From the NCBI RefSeq assembly GCF_007988945.1, contig NZ_BJVC01000003.1, positions 1 to 64,000 of the forward strand: DNA of 64,000 bases. The letters run 5' to 3'. The notes under the pieces are model-generated. The model worked only from the letters and a program-made list of their open reading frames with translations, was not told the origin of the DNA and did no database searches. This DNA is from Swaminathania salitolerans (GTDB lineage Bacteria; Pseudomonadota; Alphaproteobacteria; Acetobacterales; Acetobacteraceae). Shown here piece after piece: positions 1 to 37,117 of this stretch (position 1 is the first letter of the stretch; the number at the start of each line of letters is the position of its first letter). Made by a program: the position numbers and the translations under genes.

Positions 1-77
1 AAAGGTCCGTGCGACTTGCATGTGTTAAGCATGCCGCCAGCGTTCGCTCTGAGCCAGGATCAAACTCTCAGGTTCAA
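1..77 (-). rRNA. rrs: 16S rRNA, 5' end only (partial)
   Basis: Read on the minus strand, positions 70 to 1 give the conserved 16S start: AGAGTTTGATCCTGGCTCAG, then the GAACGCTGGCGGCATGC stretch and the ACATGCAAGTCG segment. Only about 77 nt of the gene lie in the window; the rest is off the left edge. The exact mature 5' end is estimated from homologous genes and may be off by a few bases. The sequence type fits Alphaproteobacteria. Confidence 0.97.
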
Positions 78-11323: not shown

Positions 11324-12658
11324 TCAGCGCAGGATACCCGTATGCCCCACGCTGTAGCGCCCCGGCTGCGGCCATACCGTCAGGCCGTGCGGCTCGGCGC
11401 CAACGGGGATCTTCCTGACGGCCCCCGTTTGGGTATCGATCGCATAGACCACGTCGTCGAAGCGTCCGGAAAGCCAGAGCAGCTTTCCGTCGGCGCTGAC
11501 ATTGCCCATATCGGGACTGCCACCACCGGGAATCGGCCAGGTCCTGACCACCTTGTCCGTGGCGAAATCGATCACGGAGACGCTGCCCGGGCTGTGACGC
11601 GGACCGTGGATCCTGTGCGAGCCGCGATTGGCCACATACATGAACTTGCCGTCCCTGCTGGGATATTCGCCATGCGTGCCCGGACCGGTCGGGATGAAGC
11701 CCGTCTCCTTGAAGCTGTCTCCATCGACCACGAAGACACCATCGGCATGCATGTCGGCAATATAGAATTTATGCCCGTCCGGTGCCGTCAGGATATCCTG
11801 CGGCATGCCGCCCCTCGAAAGCTTGAGATAGCCCATGAGCTTGAGATTGACCGTATCGACCTTCGCCAGATAGCCGCCGAACTCGCAGGTGAAGATGGCG
11901 TAACGACCGTCGATCGAGAAATCGGCGTGATTGATGCCCTTGCATTGCGGGGCCTCGACCGAACCGAGCAGCGCCATGCTGTGCGGATCGCGGAAGTCCA
12001 GACGCTTGTGCGCCTCCGCCACCGTGATGGCATATTTTCCGTCCGGCGTGAAATACATGTTGTACGGATCGTCGACGGTCACCGCCGGGCCGGGCTTGCC
12101 CGTATGCGGGTCGATCGGTGTCAGGCTGCCGTCATTGCTGCCCTCGGCATTGTTCGTGACCCATAGCGTGCGCAGATCCCAGCTCGGCACGACATGTTGC
12201 GGGCTGCGACCGACCTTGAACGTATCGATGACCTTGAAGCTGGCCGGATCGATGACAGAGACGCTGTTGCCGCGCAGATTCGGCACATAGACCCGGGCCG
12301 GATCTCCCGCGACGGCCGGAGCGATCTTGCCTGCCTCGGTCTCGCTGTAGATGTTGTGCGGATCGACGACCGGCGGCATTCCGGGAATCGTCTCGACAGC
12401 CGCACTGGCGGCTGCTGCGGACGAACCCGGGAGGGCGGCGCGCTCTGTCTGGCCCGATGCTGTCGAGGCATTTCCGGCGCCAGAGGAGGGGGTGCCAGAG
12501 GAAGGCGTGCCTGAGGGGGAGGTGCCAGTAGCGGCCGGGTTAGCGCCCGGGTTAGCGGCCGGGGTGGCAGCCGGGGGGGTGGTCTCCTGCGCGAGCGCGG
12601 TGGTCGCGAGCATCAACCCGGCAAGCGACGCGATGACTGAGTGACGTGAGAACTTCAT
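11324..12658 (-). CDS. exported YVTN-type beta-propeller protein
   Basis: The 444-residue protein begins with a signal peptide (about residues 1-23, ending ATTALAQ). A Pro/Ala/Gly/Ser-rich linker (about 24-90) contains short repeats ([20 protein letters not shown]). The rest is a seven-bladed propeller with YVTN-like repeats such as [52 protein letters not shown] and [15 protein letters not shown]. Such propellers are periplasmic or surface proteins, sometimes linked to PQQ enzymes or metal metabolism; no catalytic site is recognisable. The longer open frame up to 13276 is rejected, because it would overlap the creatininase-like gene and remove the signal peptide from the N-terminus. That gene ends 25 bp upstream on the same strand, suggesting an operon. 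Confidence 0.85.
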
Positions 12659-12683
12659 CGATACTCCTTGATGACACCCCGCC

Positions 12684-13526
12684 TCAGCGGGTTTTGCCGA
12701 GAGCGGCAAGCGCCGCCTCCAGCTGGATATCCGTGCCGATCCGCCCGAGCGCCGCCGTGGCCGGTCGCGGATCTCCCCCATAGACGCCCTCGGCGGCGGT
12801 CGGCAGACCGGCCTTGCGCAGAGCGTCCTGCCGCACCATCGTGGGGTCGATGGCGAGCATGAGCGCGGTATCGCTGAGATCGGCATGCTTGCCGAGATCG
12901 CCACCGAACCCCCTCTCGCGCAACGCCTGTGCATAGCGCGTGCCGATACTGTCGTAATAGGCACCGAGATAGAGGGCCTGGGCCGCATTGTGCCACTTAT
13001 GATCCAGCTTCGCGACCGCTGCCTTGAGATAGGACAAATAGCCGCCGTGATCGGCGATGAAAACGATGCGTCTGAATCCCTGCACGCGGAAGCTCTCCGC
13101 CGCCCCCTCGAGAAGCCCCTCGAACACTGCCGGGGGAATCGAGATCGTGCCGGGAAAACGCATATGCGAGGTCCGGGGCGTCGTGCTGCCCTCGGGAACA
13201 TAGGCGATGACGGGCGCGACGAGCGCATCGCCGAGACGGCGCGCGATGCGCTCGGCCTGGGCCGCCGCCCGGACATTATGCTTGCCGACCGCGATATAGG
13301 GACCGCTCTGCTCCGTACCGCCTACAGGGATGATGATCGTGCGCGTGCCCTCACGAAGACGTGCCGCGATTTCGGTCCAGGTCAGCGCAGCAAACGCAAC
13401 GGTTCTTTCCCGCACCACGCTGCCGGAGCCGGCCTGTGCTGCGGCGGATCCGGAGAAGATGACGGTCGCCAGACCGCAGAATACCGCGGAACGAACGGCC
13501 TGTTTCAGACGTCGGAGAACGTGCAC
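12684..13526 (-). CDS. exported creatininase-family protein
   Basis: With a GTG start at 13526 the 280-residue protein has a signal peptide (basic start, hydrophobic AVFCGLATVIFSG, cleavage after SAAAQ), followed by a creatininase-family domain. That domain has IIIPVGGTEQSGPYIAVGKHN near residue 60, RFPGTISIPP, IVFIADHGGYLSYL and KHADLSDTALMLAIDP. The family contains metal-dependent amidohydrolases (creatininase, MftE, FAPy deformylase) that usually read EQHGPHLPLxTD at the first site. Here the His after Gln is Ser and the Asp position reads His, so the metal site is atypical. An exported member is unusual. The ribosome-binding site is weak, so the start is uncertain. Likely co-transcribed with the propeller gene. 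Confidence 0.78.
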   Translation of the reverse strand: MHVLRRLKQAVRSAVFCGLATVIFSGSAAAQAGSGSVVRERTVAFAALTWTEIAARLREGTRTIIIPVGGTEQSGPYIAVGKHNVRAAAQAERIARRLGDALVAPVIAYVPEGSTTPRTSHMRFPGTISIPPAVFEGLLEGAAESFRVQGFRRIVFIADHGGYLSYLKAAVAKLDHKWHNAAQALYLGAYYDSIGTRYAQALRERGFGGDLGKHADLSDTALMLAIDPTMVRQDALRKAGLPTAAEGVYGGDPRPATAALGRIGTDIQLEAALAALGKTR

Positions 13527-35771: not shown

Positions 35772-36905
35772 TCAGCGCTTGAACCCGGGAGGAACGAAGG
35801 GAAGGGCACGGATCTCGACCGGGACCAGACGGCCGCGCAATGCACCGAAAAGCGTCGTGCCGACCGCGGCATGCGATGTCGCGACATAGCCCATGGCCAC
35901 GGGAGCGCTCACGCTCGGGCCGAATGCGCCAGAAGTGACATGACCGACTTTCTCCCGTCCTTCCGCATCGGCAAAAAGCTCGGTGCCGGCACGGATCGGC
36001 GCACGCCCCTCCGCCGCAAGCCCGACACGCAGGCGACCGACCCCCTCGCGGGCCTGGGCCATCACGATATCGGCGCCGGGATATCCCCCTGCCCGGACAC
36101 CGCCCTCGCGCCGGGTTTTCTGTATCGCCCAGCCGAGCGCGGCCTCGAGCGGGGTCGTCGTCTCGTCGAGATCGCTGCCGTAGAGACAGAGCCCTGCCTC
36201 GAGACGCAGGCTGTCGCGCGCACCGAGACCGACAGGGAGAACGCGCTCATCGGCCAGAAGCGCCCGGGCGATCTGTTCGGCGTGATCTGCCGGGATACCG
36301 ATCTCGAATCCGTCCTCACCCGTATAGCCAGACCGGGTCACCGTGCAGGGAATGCCATCGATATCGGCCTCGATCGCATCCATGAACCGCATGGTCGCCG
36401 CCTCGGGGCAAAGCTCGGACAGGACATGGACCGCCTCGGGGCCCTGGAGCGCGAGAAGCGCCCGATCCGCCAGCGTCTCGATCACGAGACGATCGCCCAG
36501 CCTGTCCTGCAGCAGGGCCGTATCCTGCTCCTTGCAGGATGCGTTGACCACCACGAACAGCCAGTCGCCCATATTGGCAACCATGAGATCGTCGCGGATG
36601 CCGCCTCGCTCATTGGTCAGGAAGCCGTAACGCTGACGATTGGCGGCAAGGCCCGCCAGATCGACCGGAATGAGGCTCTCGAGCGCCAGCGCGGCCTCCG
36701 TACAGCCTCCAACCCGCGCCGTGATCCGCAGCTGCCCCATATGGGACACGTCGAACAGGCCTGCCTTGTTGCGCGTGTGGAGATGTTCCGCCATCAGCCC
36801 CGCATTGTATTGCAGGGGCATCGCGTAACCGGCGAACGGCACCATGCGGGCACCGAGCGCGCGATGAAGGGCATCGAGCGGGGTGAGAGAGAGAGCGTCG
36901 GACAC
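35772..36905 (-). CDS. gcvT: aminomethyltransferase, glycine cleavage T-protein
   Basis: The 377-residue protein releases ammonia from the aminomethyl-lipoyl intermediate and transfers the methylene group to tetrahydrofolate. Seen are LHRALGARMVPFAGYAMPLQY, FDVSHMGQLRI, the folate-site RSGYTGEDGFEI and the C-terminal VGHVTSGAFGPSVSAPVAMGYV. It starts with GTG at 36905, GGGGAG ten bases upstream. It is first in the operon, directly under control of the glycine riboswitch. Confidence 0.96.
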   Translation of the reverse strand: MSDALSLTPLDALHRALGARMVPFAGYAMPLQYNAGLMAEHLHTRNKAGLFDVSHMGQLRITARVGGCTEAALALESLIPVDLAGLAANRQRYGFLTNERGGIRDDLMVANMGDWLFVVVNASCKEQDTALLQDRLGDRLVIETLADRALLALQGPEAVHVLSELCPEAATMRFMDAIEADIDGIPCTVTRSGYTGEDGFEIGIPADHAEQIARALLADERVLPVGLGARDSLRLEAGLCLYGSDLDETTTPLEAALGWAIQKTRREGGVRAGGYPGADIVMAQAREGVGRLRVGLAAEGRAPIRAGTELFADAEGREKVGHVTSGAFGPSVSAPVAMGYVATSHAAVGTTLFGALRGRLVPVEIRALPFVPPGFKR

Positions 36906-36942: not shown

Positions 36943-37103
36943 GTCGCCCCTTCTGTCGCCTTTGCCTGAGATCGCTATCCCGTCGGCGGACATCCCCCAG
37001 GGATGCCTCTCTCCAGAAGTTCCAGCCGATCCCGGTCCTTTTGCCTGAGAGTTTCCGGGGCGGTTGCTCCTTCGGCGCCGGAAAATGTGTCCGGTCTCTC
37101 CCG
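36943..37103 (-). ncRNA. tandem glycine riboswitch controlling gcvT-H-P
   Basis: On the minus strand two glycine aptamers follow each other. The first (37103 to about 37032) reads GGGAGAGACCGG, CGCCGAAGGAGCAACC and ACTCTCAGGCAAAAGGACC. The second (37020 to about 36943) reads CTGGAGAGAGG, CGCCGACGGGATAGC and ATCTCAGGCAAAGGCGACAGAAGGGG. The GGAGAG and CTCAGGCAAA signatures are the strongly conserved parts of this RNA. It lies 38 nt before the gcvT start, without an obvious terminator stem with a U-run, so control of translation or an anti-terminator arrangement is possible. Glycine binding normally turns gcv expression on. Confidence 0.92.
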
Positions 37104-37117
37104 TAAATCGGTGTTTA

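Follow-up and report, generated by a model that had tools for sequence, protein, structure and literature searches.

The window analysed in this study, a stretch of 64,000 nucleotides from Swaminathania salitolerans (contig NZ_BJVC01000003.1, positions 1 to 64,000), carries on its reverse strand two adjoining genes, the first specifying an exported creatininase-fold protein and the second an exported beta-propeller (Table 1). The creatininase-like ORF comprises 280 aa when read from a GTG codon at 13526, the frame staying open to 13991, and the propeller gene starts at an ATG codon at 12658, which lies 25 bases past the creatininase stop codon and which is buried within a 650-aa frame in the mechanical ORF list.

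Table 1. Features of the creatininase-propeller locus, in window coordinates
Feature	Position	Strand	Basis
Exported KH-type creatininase-fold protein	12684..13526	-	PF02633, PDB matches, AlphaFold2 model, hydrophobic N-terminus
Rebuilt first metal motif, E-Q-S-G...G-K-H	13278..13313	-	Conservation in 96 distinct pairs and column mapping
DHGGY motif: H120 equivalent kept, Gly at the E122 position, new Asp132	13038..13052	-	D132 and H133 in 96/96 distinct pairs
Exported YncE/YVTN-type seven-bladed beta-propeller, 444 aa, dedicated partner	11324..12658	-	PF21783, AlphaFold2, 1l0q match
Pro/Ala/Gly/Ser/Thr linker with short tandem repeats	12400..12586	-	TRF arrays 12479-12528 and 12529-12575; length survey

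The creatininase-like protein was assigned to PF02633 (E = 4.1e-41; 141.4 bits against a cut-off of 31.3), being the single match to this family across the 2.92-Mb genome, and PDB sequence matches were obtained to 3no4 and 1j2t. Its AlphaFold2 model, built from 39 sequences (pLDDT 91), aligned with creatininases over approximately 230 residues at VIA-align Z scores of 22.9–25, the next fold scoring 8.7, and a Foldseek comparison with creatininase returned an E-value of 3e-14. The mature domain begins at approximately residue 28, following a hydrophobic N-terminal segment that ends in AAAQA, and the creatininase-family domain with a signal peptide claimed by the initial annotation is thereby upheld. 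The characterised family members creatininase, ArfB, MftE and IolN are cytoplasmic and possess canonical metal sites. The window protein scored 85.9 bits against the equivalog model of creatininase proper (TIGR04448; cut-off 235) and 77.6 bits against that of MftE (TIGR03964; cut-off 172), and no NCBIfam equivalog reached its cut-off for either this protein or the propeller.

For the propeller, a PF21783 (YNCE-like) match was obtained at 75.1 bits (E = 8.3e-21; cut-off 27.1), which agrees with the earlier claim of a propeller close behind the creatininase, and the generic YVTN repeat model was likewise exceeded. Scores remained below the cut-offs of the YncE equivalog NF052280 (33.6 versus 400 bits), TIGR03866 (88.3 versus 287.3), the L-NosZ model NF052460 (69.4 versus 700), the AztD model NF038015 (19.2 versus 400) and the gluconolactonase-type family PF10282 (20.4 versus 21.7). 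The AlphaFold2 model (32 sequences; pLDDT 93) most closely resembled 1l0q among solved structures (Z = 37, rmsd 2.2 over 295 residues), followed by many propellers near a Z score of 30; lactonase, NosZ and thiocyanate dehydrogenase (TcDH) chains scored 29–33, and PpgL scored 31.3, tied with many others. The seven-bladed fold is thus common to lactonase-type, NosZ, thiocyanate dehydrogenase and AztD propellers and does not separate these classes, although the window propeller differs from L-NosZ and AztD in lying far below their NCBIfam cut-offs. Assignment of a class by fold was discarded, as the scores of lactonases, NosZ, BtuG and TcDH lie too near each other to be separated.

Concerning the location of the two proteins, 120 of 121 creatininases and 104 of 106 propellers have a hydrophobic stretch ahead of the domain, as judged by simple hydropathy, as distinct from a signal-peptide predictor; the export signal that had been proposed for the creatininase-like protein is supported. 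In the available text of an Asaia study (PMC4670117), a PhoA screen yielded a 151-residue N-terminal fragment of a ‘YVTN beta-propeller repeat protein Ybp’, and when this fragment, rather than the full-length protein, was fused to PhoA, the fusion was found in the culture supernatant; that study employed only the PhoA-fused fragment, as a secretion signal. The fragment shares 70 identities over its 151 residues with the window propeller, from the first Met through VYVPNLRG, and Ybp, as far as the published fragment extends, is evidently its orthologue. Both proteins would thus be expected to work outside the cytoplasmic membrane, be it in the periplasm or extracellularly. The linker that precedes the propeller domain comprises approximately 60 residues, with DNA tandem repeats (TRF) of 15 bp (3.3 copies) and 12 bp (3.9 copies). 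The initial annotation was correct in noting a repeat linker, yet its composition is Pro/Ala/Gly/Ser/Thr instead of Pro/Gly/Ser, and its standing as a defining feature is not maintained, since the stretch between the hydrophobic core and the conserved beginning of the propeller domain varies from 1 to 110 residues among 106 propellers (median 35), being very short in many orthologues. The linker is variable and incidental.

Linkage of the two genes was observed at 106 loci, corresponding to 96 distinct pairs because two locus collections overlap, and in all 106 the creatininase gene comes first and on the same strand. The distance from the creatininase stop codon to the first in-frame propeller ATG has a median of 18.5 bases across 104 loci, the remaining two, devoid of an in-frame ATG, being omitted. 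Among 299 genomes of the family, the propeller (E ≤ 1e-40) was found in 57 and a creatininase with 48% identity or more, a cut-off set after a gap down to 42% had been seen, in 58; both were present in 57, the propeller alone in none and the close creatininase alone in one (G050). A further nine family genomes carry a creatininase of a wider branch (36–42% identity) without a propeller. In two genomes (G294 and G116) both genes are present though far apart or on different contigs. Similarly, nine Acetobacter loci among the top 80 of at least 576 relatives carry a propeller without an adjoining creatininase, one of them (L151) with the propeller at a contig edge, and eight of these nine genomes carry the creatininase elsewhere or on another contig, the exception being G998. 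Outside the family, ten propeller genomes were found in a sample of 398 genomes of the phylum, eight of them with a creatininase and two (G780 and G676) without, so that three of the 19 re-checked propeller genomes are devoid of a close creatininase. Since these counts are drawn from related species that share ancestry, and are not independent, the Fisher value calculated for the co-occurrence within the family carries no independent weight, and the unlinked and transferred cases weigh more heavily.

A Pfam scan of flanking genes in several taxa, picked by an imperfect filter on codon-position GC, yielded nothing consistently shared as a third partner, and as the flanking genes vary between taxa, the module consists of two genes. 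The lldD gene was rejected as an operon member: its start lies 52 bases downstream of the pair in the window, yet the two adjoin in only a few Asaia-like genomes (three of 37 loci in one collection, and two of the 80 highest-ranking of at least 576 relatives in another), and it is therefore placed outside the conserved module. The creatininase and the propeller constitute a dedicated two-gene module, and the pairing suspected from the window sequence holds in order and strand at every linked locus, both genes being present in all 57 propeller-bearing family genomes. The propeller is apparently split between frames or contigs in four family genomes (those of loci L061 and L062, as well as G221 and G241), which may reflect errors in sequencing, breaks between contigs or genuine decay.

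The first metal motif of the creatininase-like protein reads GGTEQSGPYIAVGKHN, whereas in three Acetobacter genomes the ordinary creatininases have EQHGPHLPLNVDQ and NGHFEN in the equivalent columns and retain H36, D45, H120 and E122. Columns were mapped by HMMER alignment to a Pseudomonas-type creatininase, counted along the chain numbering, which gave the correspondences (window residue first) E45 to E34, S47 to H36, H56 to D45, H133 to H120, G135 to E122, Y164 to W154, H187 to H178 and D192 to E183. E34, H36, D45, H120 and E122 are taken here to be the dinuclear metal ligands of creatininase, and the titles of PDB entries for creatininase mutants name E122 and W154. By this reckoning E34 and H120 are kept, and H36, D45 and E122 are replaced by Ser, His and Gly, so that the canonical dinuclear set is incomplete. 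The changed motif reported previously (EQSG...KHN), with S and H at the H36 and D45 columns, and the retained His of ADHGG are accordingly both recovered by the alignment. The initial annotation had also considered that His or Asp ligands might be placed elsewhere in the domain, and here the outcome was mixed: three of the canonical ligands are indeed replaced, but the new His56 falls exactly at the column of the bridging Asp and an Asp132 has been gained, and a re-formed metal site is therefore possible.

Across the 96 distinct pairs, E45, Q46, G48, K55, H56, D132, H133, H187 and D192 are invariant, and S47, H94 and G135 are each present in 95. Pairwise dN/dS values of the creatininase against its relatives L032 and L033 were 0.145/1.131 and 0.165/1.347 (approximately 0.12–0.13), and those of the propeller 0.054/0.746 and 0.058/1.093 (approximately 0.05–0.07), its dN being the lowest among the five genes compared with these two relatives. 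Such invariance, together with dN/dS ratios well below 1, marks the altered site as a fixed signature, beyond chance. The creatininase-fold protein is a new variant within a known fold, for which the mechanism given here is a proposal. In comparison with creatininase (1j2t and the 3a6 entries), with which it shares the fold (Z of approximately 25) and the E34, H120 and H178 positions, it differs in having Ser for H36, His for D45, Gly for E122, Asp for E183 and Tyr for W154, and moreover in being exported and adjoining a propeller.

Based on these findings, we give roughly even credence to the proposal that the pair forms a dedicated exported two-protein system, in which a hydrolase of the KH branch of the creatininase fold is combined with a ligand-binding propeller. 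In the KH pocket, Glu45 (E34) and His133 (H120) are kept, the second-metal ligands are replaced (H36 by Ser, E122 by Gly) and the bridging Asp45 gives way to the invariant Lys55-His56, with Asp132 added. The domain is most likely still a hydrolase with a rebuilt site, and would cleave a C-N bond, be it of an amide, a lactam or a peptide-like compound. A single divalent metal may be held by Glu45, His56 and His133, with Lys55 standing in for the second metal; in the main sub-variant of this proposal the site would be a metal-free Glu/Lys/His/Asp site. The propeller would bind the substrate or product of the enzyme, or a cofactor for it. Hydrolysis, the metal state, the ligand of the funnel and a physical contact between the two proteins are put forward as proposals.

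The wider KH branch, whose members occur without a propeller, bears on the choice between these sub-variants. Its motif reads EQNG...GKH[ND], and some members have Ser or Asn in place of H133 (Asn in L058, as DNG) while D132 stays, which argues against metal binding through H133 as the chemistry shared by the branch. This counts against a one-metal site, and a metal-free site is thus nearly as likely. When a wider-branch member was used as query against 249 genomes of the phylum, ten matched at 1e-20, six of which have the pair. Four members (L200, L201, L206 and L209) read GDSGG at the His-ligand position, a further canonical ligand being lost. In one of these (L209:6666-8504, + strand) a KH-type creatininase domain is fused to a fatty acid hydroxylase, and in another genome (L208:4694-6483, + strand) a KH-type creatininase directly follows a separate fatty acid hydroxylase gene, an association which may point to a substrate related to lipids in the wider branch. 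Arginine-rich, Tat-like N-termini were also observed in Acetobacteraceae proteins related to the KH branch that have no adjoining propeller (L051-L055).

The replacement of three of the five canonical ligands, and the loss of H133 in the wider branch as well, would also fit a creatininase fold that has lost catalysis and is secreted to bind a target, the propeller serving as its co-receptor or scaffold. We nevertheless consider this decidedly unlikely, as the polar pocket (E45, Q46, K55, H56, D132, H133, H187 and D192) is complete in all 96 distinct pairs, which is unusual for decay. With respect to the secreted binding or modifying pair that the initial annotation suggested in place of an amidohydrolase, so strict a conservation of the pocket speaks against a decayed enzyme, and a hydrolase with one metal or none would be compatible with it. 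At the opposite extreme, membership of PF02633 might suggest an ordinary creatinine amidohydrolase that merely shares an operon with an S-layer-like structural propeller, given that an S-layer role was proposed in the Asaia paper, in its available text (PMC4670117), and that the closest solved propeller, 1l0q, is an archaeal surface-layer protein. This explanation is barely credible in view of the equivalog score noted above, the differing ligand and W154 positions and the co-retention of both genes when they are non-adjacent, the last of which counts against a merely shared operon.

Returning to the proposed hydrolase with its ligand-binding propeller, the inner-strand starts of the seven blades carry H, N, H, D, H, D/M and H in 94–96 of the 96 distinct pairs, the remainder being gaps, and two Cys residues are invariant throughout. 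YncE/YVTN propellers (1l0q and Escherichia coli YncE) share the YVTN repeats and the seven blades, but lack a dedicated creatininase partner, and in the blades shown in its alignment 1l0q has Gly or variable residues at the invariant funnel positions, so that the funnel His/Asp are unshared with it there. The invariant His/Asp/Asn/Met residues would constitute a candidate binding funnel.

The funnel and the two invariant Cys residues would also suit a maturation pair, in which one protein activates the other by either of two routes: the exported creatininase-like protein may cleave or modify the propeller, much as MftE, a creatininase homologue, cleaves a peptide according to the available text of PMC10885120, or the propeller may hand a metal or cofactor to the creatininase in the manner of AztD-like metallochaperones. 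Weak AztD similarity was detected in 17 of 32 propellers, and the propeller is rarely found without the creatininase whereas KH creatininases occur alone, which suggests that the propeller depends on the creatininase. Against this, no conserved cleavage or modification site was found, the N-terminal linker being variable, and the scores against the AztD and MftE models lie far below their cut-offs, for which reason such a maturation role is regarded as unlikely. The likeness to MftE, the mycofactocin peptidase, extends beyond the creatininase fold in that an FMN dehydrogenase gene is nearby in the window too; however, this neighbour is LldD (723.9 bits against a cut-off of 550) as opposed to MftD (246.4 against 470.85).

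It is also conceivable, though very improbable, that the pair is an accessory to the periplasmic PQQ-dependent oxidation of sugars and alcohols in acetic acid bacteria. The propeller gives weak matches to a PQQ-associated propeller model, and pqqC was found in 13 of 20 hand-picked propeller genomes as compared to 20 of 120 genomes in a sample of the phylum, which includes some of them. The other seven of the 20, family members G045, G209 and G213 among them, are without pqqC, indicating that PQQ synthesis is not required.

Among the 80 highest-ranking of at least 576 relatives, propeller carriers include Asaia, Gluconobacter, Komagataeibacter, Acetobacter, Bombella and Saccharibacter, as well as Rhodanobacter, Dyella, Fulvimonas, Burkholderia, Paraburkholderia and Roseomonas mucosa. 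The pair itself is found in acetic acid bacteria and in some soil bacteria unrelated to them, and it is present in Burkholderia, Dyella and Rhodanobacter. For tree comparison, 19 of the 96 distinct pairs, from other families and Roseomonas mucosa, were set apart from the remaining 77. Thirteen of the 19 fell inside the clade of the other 77 in the creatininase tree (support 0.97), as did 17 in the propeller tree, which was midpoint-rooted and carried no support at this node; in a rooted tree no outgroup sequence lay inside the paired clade, whose node had a support of 0.0. Rhodanobacter, Burkholderia and Dyella sequences sit among those of Acetobacteraceae in both trees, and the nearest neighbours of Roseomonas mucosa and of the Burkholderia group agree between them, with some Rhodanobacter and Dyella placements differing in detail. 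The divergence of the two proteins is correlated (r = 0.83, a value that includes shared ancestry). The trees thus support the view that the pair moved horizontally as a unit. One locus of the family of the window (L060, genome G226) has a creatininase and a propeller near those of Rhodanobacter, and, with 3% contamination listed for that genome, this may represent recent transfer or contamination.

A more specific and more tentative form of the proposal, which we consider possible rather than probable, is that of a horizontally mobile exported system in which a Glu-Lys-His-Asp site replaces the dinuclear centre and the propeller funnel holds a ligand or metal bound by His/Asp. If true, a mobile two-protein enzyme system would be widespread among acetic acid bacteria, bee-associated species with small genomes included; the chemistry of the creatininase fold would be broadened by an exported branch that is strictly paired and has a rebuilt site, and a function would be assigned to a pair which industrial acetic acid bacteria and insect symbionts have both retained. 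In the literature searched on the creatininase family, YVTN propellers and acetic acid bacteria, with subscription papers thinly covered, no paper on the pair was encountered, and the available main text of the Asaia Ybp paper (PMC4670117) does not contain the string ‘creatinin’. The exported pair is real and conserved and, as far as these searches reached, uncharacterised.

With regard to the remainder of the window, PADLOC returned no match to anti-phage defence systems, no RNA element was found at the pair at the gathering threshold, and a promoter and terminator scan yielded no more than would be expected by chance. An ordinary glycine riboswitch is located at 37023-37114 (- strand), upstream of two same-strand ORFs, one GcvT-like (35772-36905) and one GcvP-like, these two names being assigned by eye, and positions 1-75 (- strand) correspond to a partial 16S rRNA gene at the window edge.
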